A stretch of DNA of 64,000 nt from Enterocytospora artemiae (taxonomy: Eukaryota; Microsporidia). The notes beneath the pieces are model-generated. The model saw only the letters and a list, made by a program, of their open reading frames with translations, was not told where the DNA came from and ran no database searches. Shown piece after piece: positions 56,510 to 63,503 of the stretch. A program made the position numbers and the translations under genes. Position 1 is the first letter of the stretch. The number at the start of each line of letters is the position of its first letter. The DNA lies in the NCBI GenBank assembly GCA_038659295.1, contig JASNGC010000002.1:372001-436000 (forward strand). The letters run 5' to 3'.

Positions 56510-58717
56510 ATGATTCAAAAATTGTCTTTGGAAGATTCAAACCACTTAAAGTCTCAACAATACATCCACAACTCTTTTATAATCATTAAGGAGCTTGTGG
56601 AAAATGCAATAGATGCAAAATGTAGCTTGATAAAGATCAAAATAGCCGATGATTTTATACTGGTCGAGGATGACGGGCATGGAATAGATTTGAGGGATCA
56701 GTCTAACTTGGAATTGCTTGGTGAGCATGGATGTACATCCAAGGAAAACAGTGCCTATAATATTTTAATGCTTAATAAACAGTCCGCATTTACTTTTGGC
56801 TATAGAGGAAGAGCACTTGCATCAATAAGAGAAATGTGTGATTTAGAAGTGCTATCCTCAGTTGATAACCAGGGTGTCGGGATCTGTAAGCTTTTTTCTT
56901 CAGGAGCACTAACTTCCATGGCAAAGAATAAAGGGACCACTGTCAAAGTGTCAAACCTATTCCATAATTGTCCAATACGAAAGAAAATCAATGTTGCAAA
57001 GCGAAACAAATACCTTGTTGATACATTGAAATACTTAAATTCTATTCTATATGTTTACAATATAGAAATTATTCTAAAAACAGACTTTGGAAGAAAAAAG
57101 GAAGAGTATGCGCTTTTGGGAAATTCAAATTTGGCCAGTCTTCAATCCTTAGACACCAATAATAGCACCTGGAAAGCATTTCATCAAGGAGTCAAGACAT
57201 ATGCGATTAGCATTCATGGATCATATCATCTTGAAATTAATCATTACTTATTTGATTTTGTTCTATTTCCAGAATGCATTCAGGGTATACAGAATATCTT
57301 TGTTGATAGAAGACCAGTAACATGTAGTTTAAAGTCATTCATCAACAAGATATTCAAGAAATTCTATAAATACCCACCTACATTTGTCTTATTGATCAAG
57401 GATGATGCAGATATCAATATTTCGAATGATAAAATGTCTGCAATTATTAAAAACACAAAGATTATAGAGATGAAACTGTCTGAGAGGATTGAGATATATC
57501 TCAGCAATAATAGAATTGTAGATTGTAGTCCATTAGACGATAAGAGGGTTCACTCTTACAATGAAATGCATCCAGACATTGAAGTATATGGAGAAACTCC
57601 AGAGATCAATACAGTAAGAATGAATTCATCCTTAGAAAGCCCCCGCAAAAAATTGAACAGTATAAAAGTTACCAATTCGATTTTTGAATTAAGCCCCTCT
57701 ACTGAAGATGTCCATCGACCGGATAAAAAGGAAAATGTTCCAAATTTATCCTTTGTGTCTGGAGAATCATCAAAATATGTTACTCTTGAAGAGGAGACAC
57801 CCATAGCTGAAGGTGGTCGTATAATTGTTGAACCTGAGACGGTAAATACCTTTGAAACAAAATATGAAAAGTATCTTGATTTTAAGCCCGAATGTCCATC
57901 GTTTTCGTCTAAGAAATGTTACAATGGAGTTAAAGCATATCAGGAAACTGAATCTGCAAATACCCTCTATCAGGATAAGAATCCAGCCACACCACCCAGC
58001 ACCAACTCCACAGAAGTTTATGCTGCTGTTGAACAGACCAACCAGATTCCAAATCAAACAAATTGCAACATAAACATTACAAAAAATGATTTTCTGAAAT
58101 TTGAGATAATCGGCCAGTTCAACCATGGCTTTATATGCTGTGTTCTCAGGAAGGAGGAGGGTCAATTCCTGATTCTAGTGGACCAGCATGCTGCAGACGA
58201 AATTTACAATTTTGAAAAACTGAAAAGAACCTTTATTTTACAAAAGCAGCTGCTCATTGTGCCCCAGGATATTCATGTAACCAAAGTTGAGGAGTTACTA
58301 ATTGATAGATTCAGAAGTACTTTTGAAAAGAATGGTTTTGTTGTTGAAAAGGTGATGGAACCCCCAGGTAAAACGATACTAGATAACCCAGGAATAACCA
58401 CATCTGAATCATCAAAAGAATCTCCACTTAAATACAGATTAACAACAGTCCCTTTCTACAAAAATATCATGTTCAATATTGAAGACTTCCAAAACCTACT
58501 CAATAATATAAGTCTCGATACCAATTTCGACTACGGCCATACATGTGATAAGTTCCGGGATATTATGGCTTCAAAGGCCTGTAGAACAAGTGTTATGATA
58601 GGAAGCGTCCTGAAATATAATAAAATGAGGGAAATCGTAGACAATCTTTCATACCTAAATGTGCCATGGGAATGTCCACATGGAAGACCAACATTCACGA
58701 TTGTGTCTAAGTTATAA
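56510..58717 (+). CDS. PMS1: MutL homolog PMS1 (PMS2-type endonuclease subunit)
   Basis: 735 residues. GHKL ATPase: IIKELVENAIDAKCS (Bergerat Asn), VEDDGHGI, and FGYRGRALASI (usual GFRGEAL). The C-terminal half begins with IIGQFNHGFICCVL; the endonuclease motif D-Q-H-A-x-x-E-x-x-x-x-E is present as DQHAADEIYNFE near residue 557, with ACRTSVMIG and CPHGRPT near the end. The DQHA, ACR and CPHGRP elements identify the PMS2/yeast PMS1 subfamily, the nicking subunit of MutL-alpha with MLH1 in mismatch repair. All metal-site motifs are kept. The usual GFRGEAL Glu is Arg here, a small oddity. Confidence 0.93.
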   Translation: MIQKLSLEDSNHLKSQQYIHNSFIIIKELVENAIDAKCSLIKIKIADDFILVEDDGHGIDLRDQSNLELLGEHGCTSKENSAYNILMLNKQSAFTFGYRGRALASIREMCDLEVLSSVDNQGVGICKLFSSGALTSMAKNKGTTVKVSNLFHNCPIRKKINVAKRNKYLVDTLKYLNSILYVYNIEIILKTDFGRKKEEYALLGNSNLASLQSLDTNNSTWKAFHQGVKTYAISIHGSYHLEINHYLFDFVLFPECIQGIQNIFVDRRPVTCSLKSFINKIFKKFYKYPPTFVLLIKDDADINISNDKMSAIIKNTKIIEMKLSERIEIYLSNNRIVDCSPLDDKRVHSYNEMHPDIEVYGETPEINTVRMNSSLESPRKKLNSIKVTNSIFELSPSTEDVHRPDKKENVPNLSFVSGESSKYVTLEEETPIAEGGRIIVEPETVNTFETKYEKYLDFKPECPSFSSKKCYNGVKAYQETESANTLYQDKNPATPPSTNSTEVYAAVEQTNQIPNQTNCNINITKNDFLKFEIIGQFNHGFICCVLRKEEGQFLILVDQHAADEIYNFEKLKRTFILQKQLLIVPQDIHVTKVEELLIDRFRSTFEKNGFVVEKVMEPPGKTILDNPGITTSESSKESPLKYRLTTVPFYKNIMFNIEDFQNLLNNISLDTNFDYGHTCDKFRDIMASKACRTSVMIGSVLKYNKMREIVDNLSYLNVPWECPHGRPTFTIVSKL

Positions 58718-60224: not shown

Positions 60225-61292
60225 TTATTTAGACTCAAATTTGGATATACTTTGCTCTAGTTTAGACAGCAGAACAGGCTCTGACGCTCTTCTGGAAACA
60301 TCCAATATGCTCAAAGCATATTGGATGTTTTTTTCTACTGCTATGCGACTTAACATCTCGATGCACTCTAAATCAGCAGTAATACTATTCGACTCAATAA
60401 AATTAGTTAGGATATCTACACAATCTTTTTCAGACGGCTTATCCACAGGGATTGTGAAGAGTTTTGTCGATGGAAGGAAAGTACTGGAATGGAGGATTAT
60501 TGAGTTGGAATCTAGAAATTTTAGATGTGATTTTGAATACTCAAAAATTGCATGTACCTGTTTCTCACTCAACAGATATCCATTCTCCATAACTATGGGT
60601 ATTTTCTTGATAGTTACCTTTTTTTCCTTGATCCAGCGAATAAGTTTACTATTGACCTCGTTCTGAATATCGTCATCAACATATAGGTTTGACATGATAT
60701 AATTCACGCCGTCTTCTTTAAAATTGATGATATCTATCTCATCAAGAGTCAGATTTGTCGTGGTTGATTCTATTTTTATACATTCACCATTGGGAATCTG
60801 CACCAAGTCCATGGAACTAATATTGCTGTTGTCAATACCTAATGCTCTTCCGATTCTTTTTACAAACCCATATTCCTTATAAATCTTTACAACATCCCCA
60901 ACAGATACCCTCTCCTTGAGCAACTCCTCATGAATTTTGGGTCCAATTTCAAAACGTGATTCCATATCTGTAGTCTTAAGTTGTATATGGCCTCCGCCAA
61001 TCTGTGTGATTTGTCCCTCGACAATCTTGAAATTTTCCAAGCATTTGACTACTATAGACCTCCTTAGTAGTTTTTTTAACTTCTTCATACATATTTCCCT
61101 ATCCTGAAATAACTCATCAGCGCTTATTTTAAGACATTCCGACTTTTCCAATTGTTTGATTATTAAATCTGAGTTATAATTTTGCCCAGTAATGATGACA
61201 TTCTCATTGTTGATGATTATCCGATTGATCACATCCATAACCTCTTTAATATATTCACCCACTATTGTTGTCCTATTTTCTTCAAAAAGCAT
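60225..61292 (-). CDS. RuvB-like 2 (RVB2)-type protein without Walker A and B motifs
   Basis: 355 residues from the ATG at 61292, preceded by ACCCAAA. It aligns with RVB2 along its whole length: IVEGQITQIGGGHIQLKTTDME and the DVVKIYKEYGFVKRIGRA segment (domain II, with a shortened insert), PNGECIKI, LTLDEIDIIN, then EVNSKLIRWIKEKK and PSEKDCVDIL...ALSILDVSRR. The P-loop GQPGTGKT is GQNYNSDL (36-43). The Walker B FIDEVHML position reads VMENGYLL (about 234-241). Arginine-finger and sensor 1 positions are also changed. So it cannot bind or hydrolyse ATP in the usual way. RVB proteins serve INO80, SWR1 and R2TP. Confidence 0.85.
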   Translation of the reverse strand: MLFEENRTTIVGEYIKEVMDVINRIIINNENVIITGQNYNSDLIIKQLEKSECLKISADELFQDREICMKKLKKLLRRSIVVKCLENFKIVEGQITQIGGGHIQLKTTDMESRFEIGPKIHEELLKERVSVGDVVKIYKEYGFVKRIGRALGIDNSNISSMDLVQIPNGECIKIESTTTNLTLDEIDIINFKEDGVNYIMSNLYVDDDIQNEVNSKLIRWIKEKKVTIKKIPIVMENGYLLSEKQVHAIFEYSKSHLKFLDSNSIILHSSTFLPSTKLFTIPVDKPSEKDCVDILTNFIESNSITADLECIEMLSRIAVEKNIQYALSILDVSRRASEPVLLSKLEQSISKFESK

Positions 61293-61705
61293 GTTTGGGT
61301 AGCAAAAATTTAGCAATTTATTTGAAATTAACCAACATAAAGCAAAAACAGGTAAATTCAAATTCAGATGTGGGGATACGTTTACAGAATAAAGACTTAT
61401 ACCATACGGGATTTATTATTGCTCGGTAATAAATCTAGTATTTCATCTACCTTTTGATATTAATATAATTGATCAGTGTCCTATGATATTCTATTGCATA
61501 ACCAGAATTTTTCTGCAAAAAAATCCAATATTGTCCTCTAATACCATTAACTAAAGTACCAACCAACAGTATCTTCTCCCACCACCCGAAAGCACTTCAT
61601 AACCTCATGAAATGATCATTAAGATTTCAGACAAATTTCAAGATCATCTTTTACAAACGATACACATAACTGACTACTTGTTATAGGCTTTTTCAAATGT
61701 ATTTA
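61293..61705. other. intergenic gap with an interrupted short frame
   Basis: Spacer of 413 bases between two same-strand genes, longer than typical here. It contains the coding-like short frame at 61447-61600 listed separately; the ACCC block of the RVB-like gene lies at its left end. Nothing else recognised. Confidence 0.3.
61447..61600 (-). pseudogene. possible small interrupted gene
   Basis: A reverse-strand ATG at 61600 opens a frame of 17 codons, ending at a TAA. The frame one base later is open from 61596 to a TAG at 61447, with about 33 of 49 codons starting with a purine. Removing one T from the TTT near 61555 would join them to about 50 residues, ending in a segment with YAIEYHRTLINYINIKR. 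No family recognised; chance is possible. Confidence 0.2.
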
Positions 61706-62723: not shown

Positions 62724-63503
62724 TTATTTTGTATCTGCCATCTTCAATTCTTCCCTAACTGTTTTAATAAACTTATTAAAGCATTTTCCTTCGGTCAATA
62801 AAGTATTGTATCTCTCCAGATTAATCTTGGGCTCGACCTCTGTAATGGGCTCACTTTTACCAAAATCAATTGTAATGTAGCAGGGCTTATTCATGGAAAA
62901 GTTAATCCTTATACAATTTGCCTTTAGCTTTACAATATCGATTCCCATATACTTTTTATAATTCTCATTCAGTAGAATCTGCTCATTATTCATTTTCTCG
63001 TTTTTCTTGATTAGAGCCGACAACTTCTCATCCAATCTCATGAGCATGTCCTCCTTTTCCGATAATACACTGCGCAAGTATGAATTCGATCTCTCCACCT
63101 CCCTTTCATGTATCTTATACTTTTCATTTTCGAACTCAAACTCCTTTATCTGTTGGCTTTCCACACAGAGCTTCTTTTGAAGCTGCTCTTTCATGCTCAT
63201 CAAATCGGCCTGTCTTTGTTTCAATGTGTCCAATTTGGTTGTTATGCACAGATTTTCTTCCAATTTTTCCTTTTTGGATTTCTCTTTCCTGAACTTAACA
63301 GAATTTATCTCGCCTTTCAGTTTTTGGATTTTTCTGTTCAATCTACTGCCTATCTCATTAATTAACTTTCTAATGTCGTTGGCAAAAGAATTGGAAACAT
63401 TTCCATATGTTGTTGAAATACTTGAAGCAACACTTACATCATCTTCCAAGGGAGAAACTGACTCGACTTTACTATCGGACAATTCTTTATGTTTTTTTGC
63501 CAT
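62724..63503 (-). CDS. SPC25: SPC25-like NDC80-complex kinetochore protein
   Basis: 259 residues; the ATG at 63503 follows GTTTAGCCTAAA. Residues 40-180 are one long coiled coil. The last 75 residues form a small globular domain beginning KKYMGIDIV (usual K-Y-L-G-L-x-I), then CIRINFSMN, YITIDFG, and YNTLLTEGKCFNKFIKTVREEL (usual F-x-x-F-L-x-x-x-R-x-x-F). This matches the SPC25 C-terminal head, which with SPC24 docks onto CENP-T or MIS12. With the ASK1-like gene, a second kinetochore protein in the window. Confidence 0.8.
   Translation of the reverse strand: MAKKHKELSDSKVESVSPLEDDVSVASSISTTYGNVSNSFANDIRKLINEIGSRLNRKIQKLKGEINSVKFRKEKSKKEKLEENLCITTKLDTLKQRQADLMSMKEQLQKKLCVESQQIKEFEFENEKYKIHEREVERSNSYLRSVLSEKEDMLMRLDEKLSALIKKNEKMNNEQILLNENYKKYMGIDIVKLKANCIRINFSMNKPCYITIDFGKSEPITEVEPKINLERYNTLLTEGKCFNKFIKTVREELKMADTK

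Follow-up and report, generated by a model that had tools for sequence, protein, structure and literature searches.

An RVB1-RVB2 pair without ATP sites and its probable retention as a structural part of INO80 in an order of microsporidia

The microsporidian genome containing the window (the whole 64,000-nucleotide stretch of DNA that was analysed) encodes both RVB1 and RVB2, and neither partner has an ATP site, whereas RuvBL1 and RuvBL2 of eukaryotes have intact catalytic residues. The sampled relatives, which by their named members belong to the order Enterocytozoonida, contained no RVB1 with a P-loop and no RVB2 with a complete site. In these relatives the pair is probably a pseudo-ATPase that has been kept as an ATP-independent structural part of the INO80 core; with slightly less confidence, the whole order has probably converted its AAA+ ring of RVB1 and RVB2 stepwise into a structural part that works without ATP, RVB1 changing first and the P-loop of RVB2 going last, with the INO80 core retained. 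RVB1-RVB2 forms part of INO80, SWR1, TIP60 and R2TP, and the available text of one study leaves the purpose of RVB ATP hydrolysis open and describes the enzymatic activities of the RVBs as "still very much questioned" (PMC4428354). A natural lineage that lacks both ATP sites but retains the fold, domain II and INO80 would allow scaffolding to be told apart from ATPase function, and would supply ATP-independent proteins for testing the two. If the reading is correct, INO80 can be assembled and can operate with no ATP hydrolysis by the RVBs, and the irreducible job of the ring is structural.

The RVB2 gene of the window and its former ATP site

The RVB2 gene (a RuvBL2/reptin homologue) occupies positions 60225..61292 of the reverse strand as an uninterrupted ATG open reading frame of 355 amino acids plus stop; the list of open reading frames starts it at an upstream TTG, which gives 378 amino acids. 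The trinucleotide CCC, presumably the microsporidian start signal found before ATG codons, lies 5 bases upstream of the ATG (61297..61299, reverse strand), and CCC or GGG occurs at most 18 bases upstream in 15 of the 32 ATG open reading frames of at least 200 amino acids in the window, RVB2 included, a raw count that carries no chance expectation. The protein matches the Pfam TIP49 profile with an E-value of 1.9e-25 (90.2 bits against a curated cut-off of 23.8), its best PDB matches are RuvB-like 2 chains (E 9.1e-20, compared with 8.2e-12 for the best RuvB-like 1), and it joins canonical RVB2 at 100/100 in a 48-row tree, nearer to RVB2 than to RVB1. Its best named relatives in the homologue search were Nucleospora and Hepatospora proteins, and in the tree it groups with P0001, Hepatospora, Nucleospora and P0060 at 100/99; because of these relatives and this placement the source is considered Enterocytozoonidae-like. 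Judged by its sequence, the gene is a true RVB2 of an Enterocytozoonidae-like microsporidian. The protein is shorter than canonical RVB2, which has 448-492 amino acids in four of five rows (the fifth is a 333-amino-acid fragment), and it has lost the N-terminal HxHI segment of RuvBL2/Rvb2/reptin. Its conserved part is domain II, the OB-fold insertion in the AAA+ core (residues 77-195, positions 60708..61064, reverse strand). Residues 196-355 (60228..60707, reverse strand) form the degenerate second half of the AAA+ core and the C-terminal helical domain, from which the sensor-1, arginine-finger and sensor-2 residues are absent.

In alignment with canonical RVB2, the former Walker A position reads GQNYNSDL (residues 36-43, 61164..61187, reverse strand) and the former Walker B position IVMENGYLL (residues 233-241, 60570..60596, reverse strand), and a pattern check found no GxxxxGK[ST] in the first 140 residues. 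Seven catalytic columns were defined from canonical RVB2 (K, S/T, D, E, N, R, R), at which the window protein has N, S, E, N, S, K and Q. The sole formal agreement is the S at the Walker A S/T column, which stands outside any loop; the Walker B DE columns are E-N, and the sensor-1 N, finger R and sensor-2 R columns are S, K and Q, the finger region being gapped in the alignment and the finger column the least certain. Canonical rows keep every catalytic residue that they cover (eight of eight RVB1 and five of five RVB2, but three of five RVB2 at Walker A, where P0006 and P0007 have no sequence). An earlier sequence-only reading had placed the chain in the RVB2 family and had described GQNYNSDL at Walker A, VMENGYLL at Walker B, and altered sensor and arginine-finger regions, and the searches, tree and alignment confirmed both the family and the lost site.

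The RVB1 partner and the relatives of both proteins

A TIP49 profile search of the 3,015,070-base assembly returned 10 matches, of which two span domain II, namely the window RVB2 and a match at C5:288814-289395. The latter lies in an open reading frame of 353 amino acids (L002:1324-2385) that has RuvB-like 1 as its best match and groups with RVB1-like relatives in the tree. This RVB1 has no P-loop, reads VVIKNADFL at Walker B, lacks the Walker B DE, the arginine finger and the sensor-2 R, and has N in the sensor-1 column. The sequence-only reading had proposed a dead RVB2 working beside an active RVB1. The loss in RVB2 stands; the view that only RVB2 is dead was rejected because the RVB1 site is also lost, and there are two dead partners, not one. 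The search for an intact RVB1 elsewhere in the genome thus ended at this ATPase-less gene, and none of its 16 short relatives has Walker A where the region is covered. The assembly also yielded no second, intact RVB2 (one match in the homologue search; two domain-II-spanning genes with the TIP49 profile). One further TIP49 match exceeded the cut-off (25.2 bits, profile positions 51-148) but was rejected as an RVB; it lies in an 815-amino-acid open reading frame that has two intact P-loops and looks CDC48-like by eye. The remaining seven matches were weaker and under the cut-off.

Relatives came from homologue searches that score a limited candidate set, the RVB2 search having scored the 7992 candidates sharing most words. 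Short RVB1 relatives numbered 16 (P0012-P0027, of 38 matches) and short RVB2 relatives 18 (P0001-P0005 and P0050-P0062, of 24 matches). Both of the RVB2 entries of Hepatospora belong to the short kind, and the second, near-identical one (P0004) was dropped from the tree and the motif counts, so that 18 of the 19 short RVB2 proteins, window included, were counted. The alignment and tree comprised 17 RVB1 and 18 RVB2 rows, including the two of the window genome, and 13 canonical rows; P0009, P0030-P0032, P0034-P0037, P0039, P0040, P0042, P0044 and P0046-P0049 were left out of the tree. Three RVB1 rows are short or partial; the Walker A region is missing from P0021 and P0025, and P0024 does not cover the Walker B acid, sensor and finger columns. 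Each short set forms one side of a 100/100 branch and the short RVB2 proteins join canonical RVB2 at 100/100, a placement in which the long branches warrant care. Open ATPase-less orthologues recur in many lineages at about 27-36% identity, so the relatives have the same loss, and because of this recurrence a decaying copy is unlikely and the loss in the window RVB2 is not put down to chance.

No short RVB1 has Walker A (0/17, 15 with sequence), and the arginine finger and the sensor-2 R are likewise absent (each 0/17, 16 with sequence). At Walker B, D was found in 4/17 and E in 1/17, with both in 0/17, and the sensor-1 column has N in 3/17. Among the short RVB2 rows, the full Walker A motif occurs once in 18 (P0057, GxxxxGKS) and Walker B DE once, in a different row (P0051); sensor-1 N is present in three rows, R at the finger column in two, and the sensor-2 R in none. 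Full Walker A and Walker B DE together were found in no short row, compared with 11 of 13 canonical rows (the other two lack the region). A pattern search recovered a P-loop remnant with GK in 7/18 and GR in 6/18 short RVB2 rows, so that 13/18 keep a glycine-rich loop, and the five rows of the window's family have neither GK nor GR and no recognisable loop. A bare column count at Walker A misleads, as it gives K in 8/18 rows (Nucleospora included) and S in the next column in 2/18 (the window included), both of these without the loop. P0057 and P0054 retain remnants of the N-terminal HxHI segment, and P0057, with its full Walker A, has decayed least among the forms seen.

From the motif table and the tree, the RVB1 site was probably lost in the common ancestor of the sampled relatives; RVB2 residues would then have been lost piecemeal, and the last P-loop remnant would have been erased in the window's family. 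Outside that family, nucleotide binding by RVB2 may survive, given the GK and GR loops. Glugoides, Vittaforma and Enterocytozoonidae are grouped in Enterocytozoonida in the available text of a 2026 genome paper (PMC13174016), and Glugoides stands under Glugeidae in NCBI taxonomy. Outside the order, PCR primers have been published for a Nosema ceranae "ruvb-like 1 DNA helicase" (PMC4320070, available text); one of them gives PKGCGKTA, a P-loop, when translated in one frame, and the reverse complement of the other encodes, also in one frame, the domain II motif VGDVVHI. Deduced from two primers and not from a full gene, the Nosema ceranae RVB1 appears to keep its P-loop, which makes a loss common to all microsporidia unlikely. 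The accessible part of the Nucleospora genome paper names RUVB1 once, on protein length (PMC12134460), and no report of an ATPase-less RVB pair in microsporidia was found in the literature searched, which excluded most subscription papers and bioRxiv preprints.

Domain II, predicted fold and the INO80 core

Mean pairwise identity among the short RVB1 rows is 25.8% before domain II, 53.6% in it and 26.1% after it; the corresponding values are 21.5%, 52.6% and 26.2% for the short RVB2 rows and 15.7%, 51.2% and 19.7% for the window's RVB2 family, whereas canonical rows have 57-74% identity across the three parts. Domain II stands well above the flanking AAA+ parts in the short rows, so constraint appears, by this comparison of proteins, to have shifted from the ATPase parts to domain II. 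A RuvBL fold was predicted over the whole window RVB2 chain from alignments that included canonical RVBs, with block pLDDT values of 82-94 in domain II except for 57 at residues 151-160, and the best structural matches of both RVB models are RuvBL chains inside INO80, SRCAP, SWR1 and TIP60 complexes. RVB1 and RVB2 thus keep a RuvBL-like predicted fold together with a strongly conserved domain II. It had been suggested that selection still keeps the fold, and the part concerning the fold held up, with confident predictions and a domain II more than 50% identical among relatives.

A search for the SNF2 family gave 11 matches in nine genes. One of these (L025) is INO80, with an E-value of 5.5e-178 to INO80 compared with 4e-128 to SRCAP and 1.2e-122 to SWR1, a DBINO domain (Pfam E 4.1e-27), and 165 residues at the insert position, where three other proteins encoded in this genome, ISWI-, CHD1- and CSB-like, have 17, 73 and 11. 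The names ISWI (SLIDE, L024), chromodomain CHD1-like (L026) and XPB (L035) are Pfam-backed; the CSB-, Mot1-, Rad16-like (two copies) and SMARCAL1-like genes were named by eye, and no SWR1-like gene was recognised among the nine. An Ies6-like protein of 106 amino acids (L031) was found with YL1_C (E 3.3e-9) and with Ies6 as best PDB match (E 2.6e-6). An Arp of 549 amino acids (L032) is called Arp5-like because human Arp5 aligns over residues 66-535, mid-protein insertion included (E 1.1e-9); the lowest PDB E-value belongs to Arp6 (4.5e-11, with the alignment in two pieces), Arp5 is ahead on coverage only, and the choice between the two is only moderately resolved. Arp8, Arp4 and Ies2 were not found in the genome, these nulls being weak (the PAPA-1 search for Ies2 was without any control match). 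Of eight histone-fold matches, one could be identified as H2A by eye. Candidates are therefore present for five of the six subunits of the INO80 C-module (Ino80 insert, Arp5, Ies6, Ies2, Rvb1, Rvb2), and the module differs from the known one in that its RVBs are ATPase-less. The available text of a paper on Encephalitozoon annotates an INO80 ATPase and mentions no RVB (PMC10158259).

In the available text of PMC4428354, incorporation of Arp5 into INO80 depends on the RVBs, and the cross-links of Arp5-Ies6-RVB to Ino80 apparently run through RVB only. In the proposed explanation both proteins would persist as a complete or partial ring that does not depend on ATP, clamps the Ino80 insert and serves as the docking site for Arp5-Ies6 in a reduced INO80 core, tasks that would need shape and domain II and not ATP turnover. 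ATP hydrolysis would have become dispensable after ATP-requiring jobs (R2TP-type chaperoning, SWR1 and others) dwindled. Clamp loaders and ORC contain inactive pseudo-AAA+ subunits beside active ones, and in them, as would be the case for the RVB pair, the AAA+ fold is kept for structure; those complexes keep other active subunits, whereas here neither RVB partner has a complete site.

Alternative explanations and further observations

The structural reading has to accommodate short rows that keep single catalytic residues, and RVB ATPase activity is tied to function elsewhere, for example in RAD51 foci (PMC5573869, available text). Rather unlikely is a role outside INO80, in which the pair would be an ATP-independent assembly chaperone or adaptor (for example in ATR maturation or snoRNP assembly) within a cut-down R2TP. 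An ATR-like PIKK with a FATC domain, with ATR as best match, is encoded at L046:1053-7427 on the reverse strand (2124 amino acids), and the accessible parts of two papers (PMC7290369, PMC6494491) describe PIKKs, ATR among them, as clients of R2TP in other eukaryotes, which makes the kinase a possible client. The genome retains INO80 and the Ies6-like and Arp5-like proteins, and PIH1, zf-HIT and TELO2 gave no profile match in it, both of which speak against this role; these nulls are weak, because FAT (PF02259) also had no match in spite of the ATR-like kinase and because the control genomes were all prokaryotes (0/14 over the cut-off). A first reading of the FAT null, that no PIKK clients were left, was dropped once the kinase was found. 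The kinase is thus kept while TELO2 and PIH1 go undetected. Cryptic nucleotide use, in which the ring would still bind ATP or ADP or would rely on other residues for hydrolysis, is unlikely: the glycine-rich loops, the full motif of P0057, the Walker B DE of P0051 and the scattered sensor-1 N residues of both proteins are what would be expected of it, but no short row combines Walker A with Walker B DE, the sensor-2 R is missing from every RVB2 row, no RVB1 row has Walker A, both Walker B acids, the finger R or the sensor-2 R, and the window's family has no recognisable loop.

It is very unlikely that an intact RVB1 or RVB2 exists and is missing from the assembly; a completeness figure for the assembly is not given, but two TIP49 matches across domain II are all that 3.0 Mb contain, and both Hepatospora RVB2 entries, from searches that score a limited candidate set, are short. 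That the genes are pseudogenes decaying under relaxed selection is scarcely credible. The AAA+ parts do evolve fast (15.7-26.2% identity) and the tree branches are long, but open ATPase-less orthologues recur in diverged lineages (17 RVB1 and 18 RVB2 rows), domain II is more than 50% identical and the predicted folds are confident. The reading of the pair as an ATP-independent structural part of INO80 is preferred.

Elsewhere in the window, a MutL/PMS-like open reading frame recognised by eye (56510-58717, forward strand) has the ATP-lid motif GYRGRAL where GFRGEAL is usual, and is possibly another altered ATPase; a Spc25-like kinetochore protein lies at 62724-63503 on the reverse strand (Pfam 6.6e-6). 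Two H3-like histones were seen by eye beside H3, a 141-amino-acid CenH3-like protein and a 306-amino-acid open reading frame with a long N-terminal part (L037, L038). The Rad16-like SNF2 gene and a 275-amino-acid neighbour occur twice in opposite orientation (L029:616-4043 and L030:388-3815, at about 170 kb and 332 kb of G000:C3), with coding stretches of 2490 and 825 bases that are identical base for base between the copies. The two copies, about 160 kb from each other, reflect either a recent inverted duplication or an artefact of the assembly.
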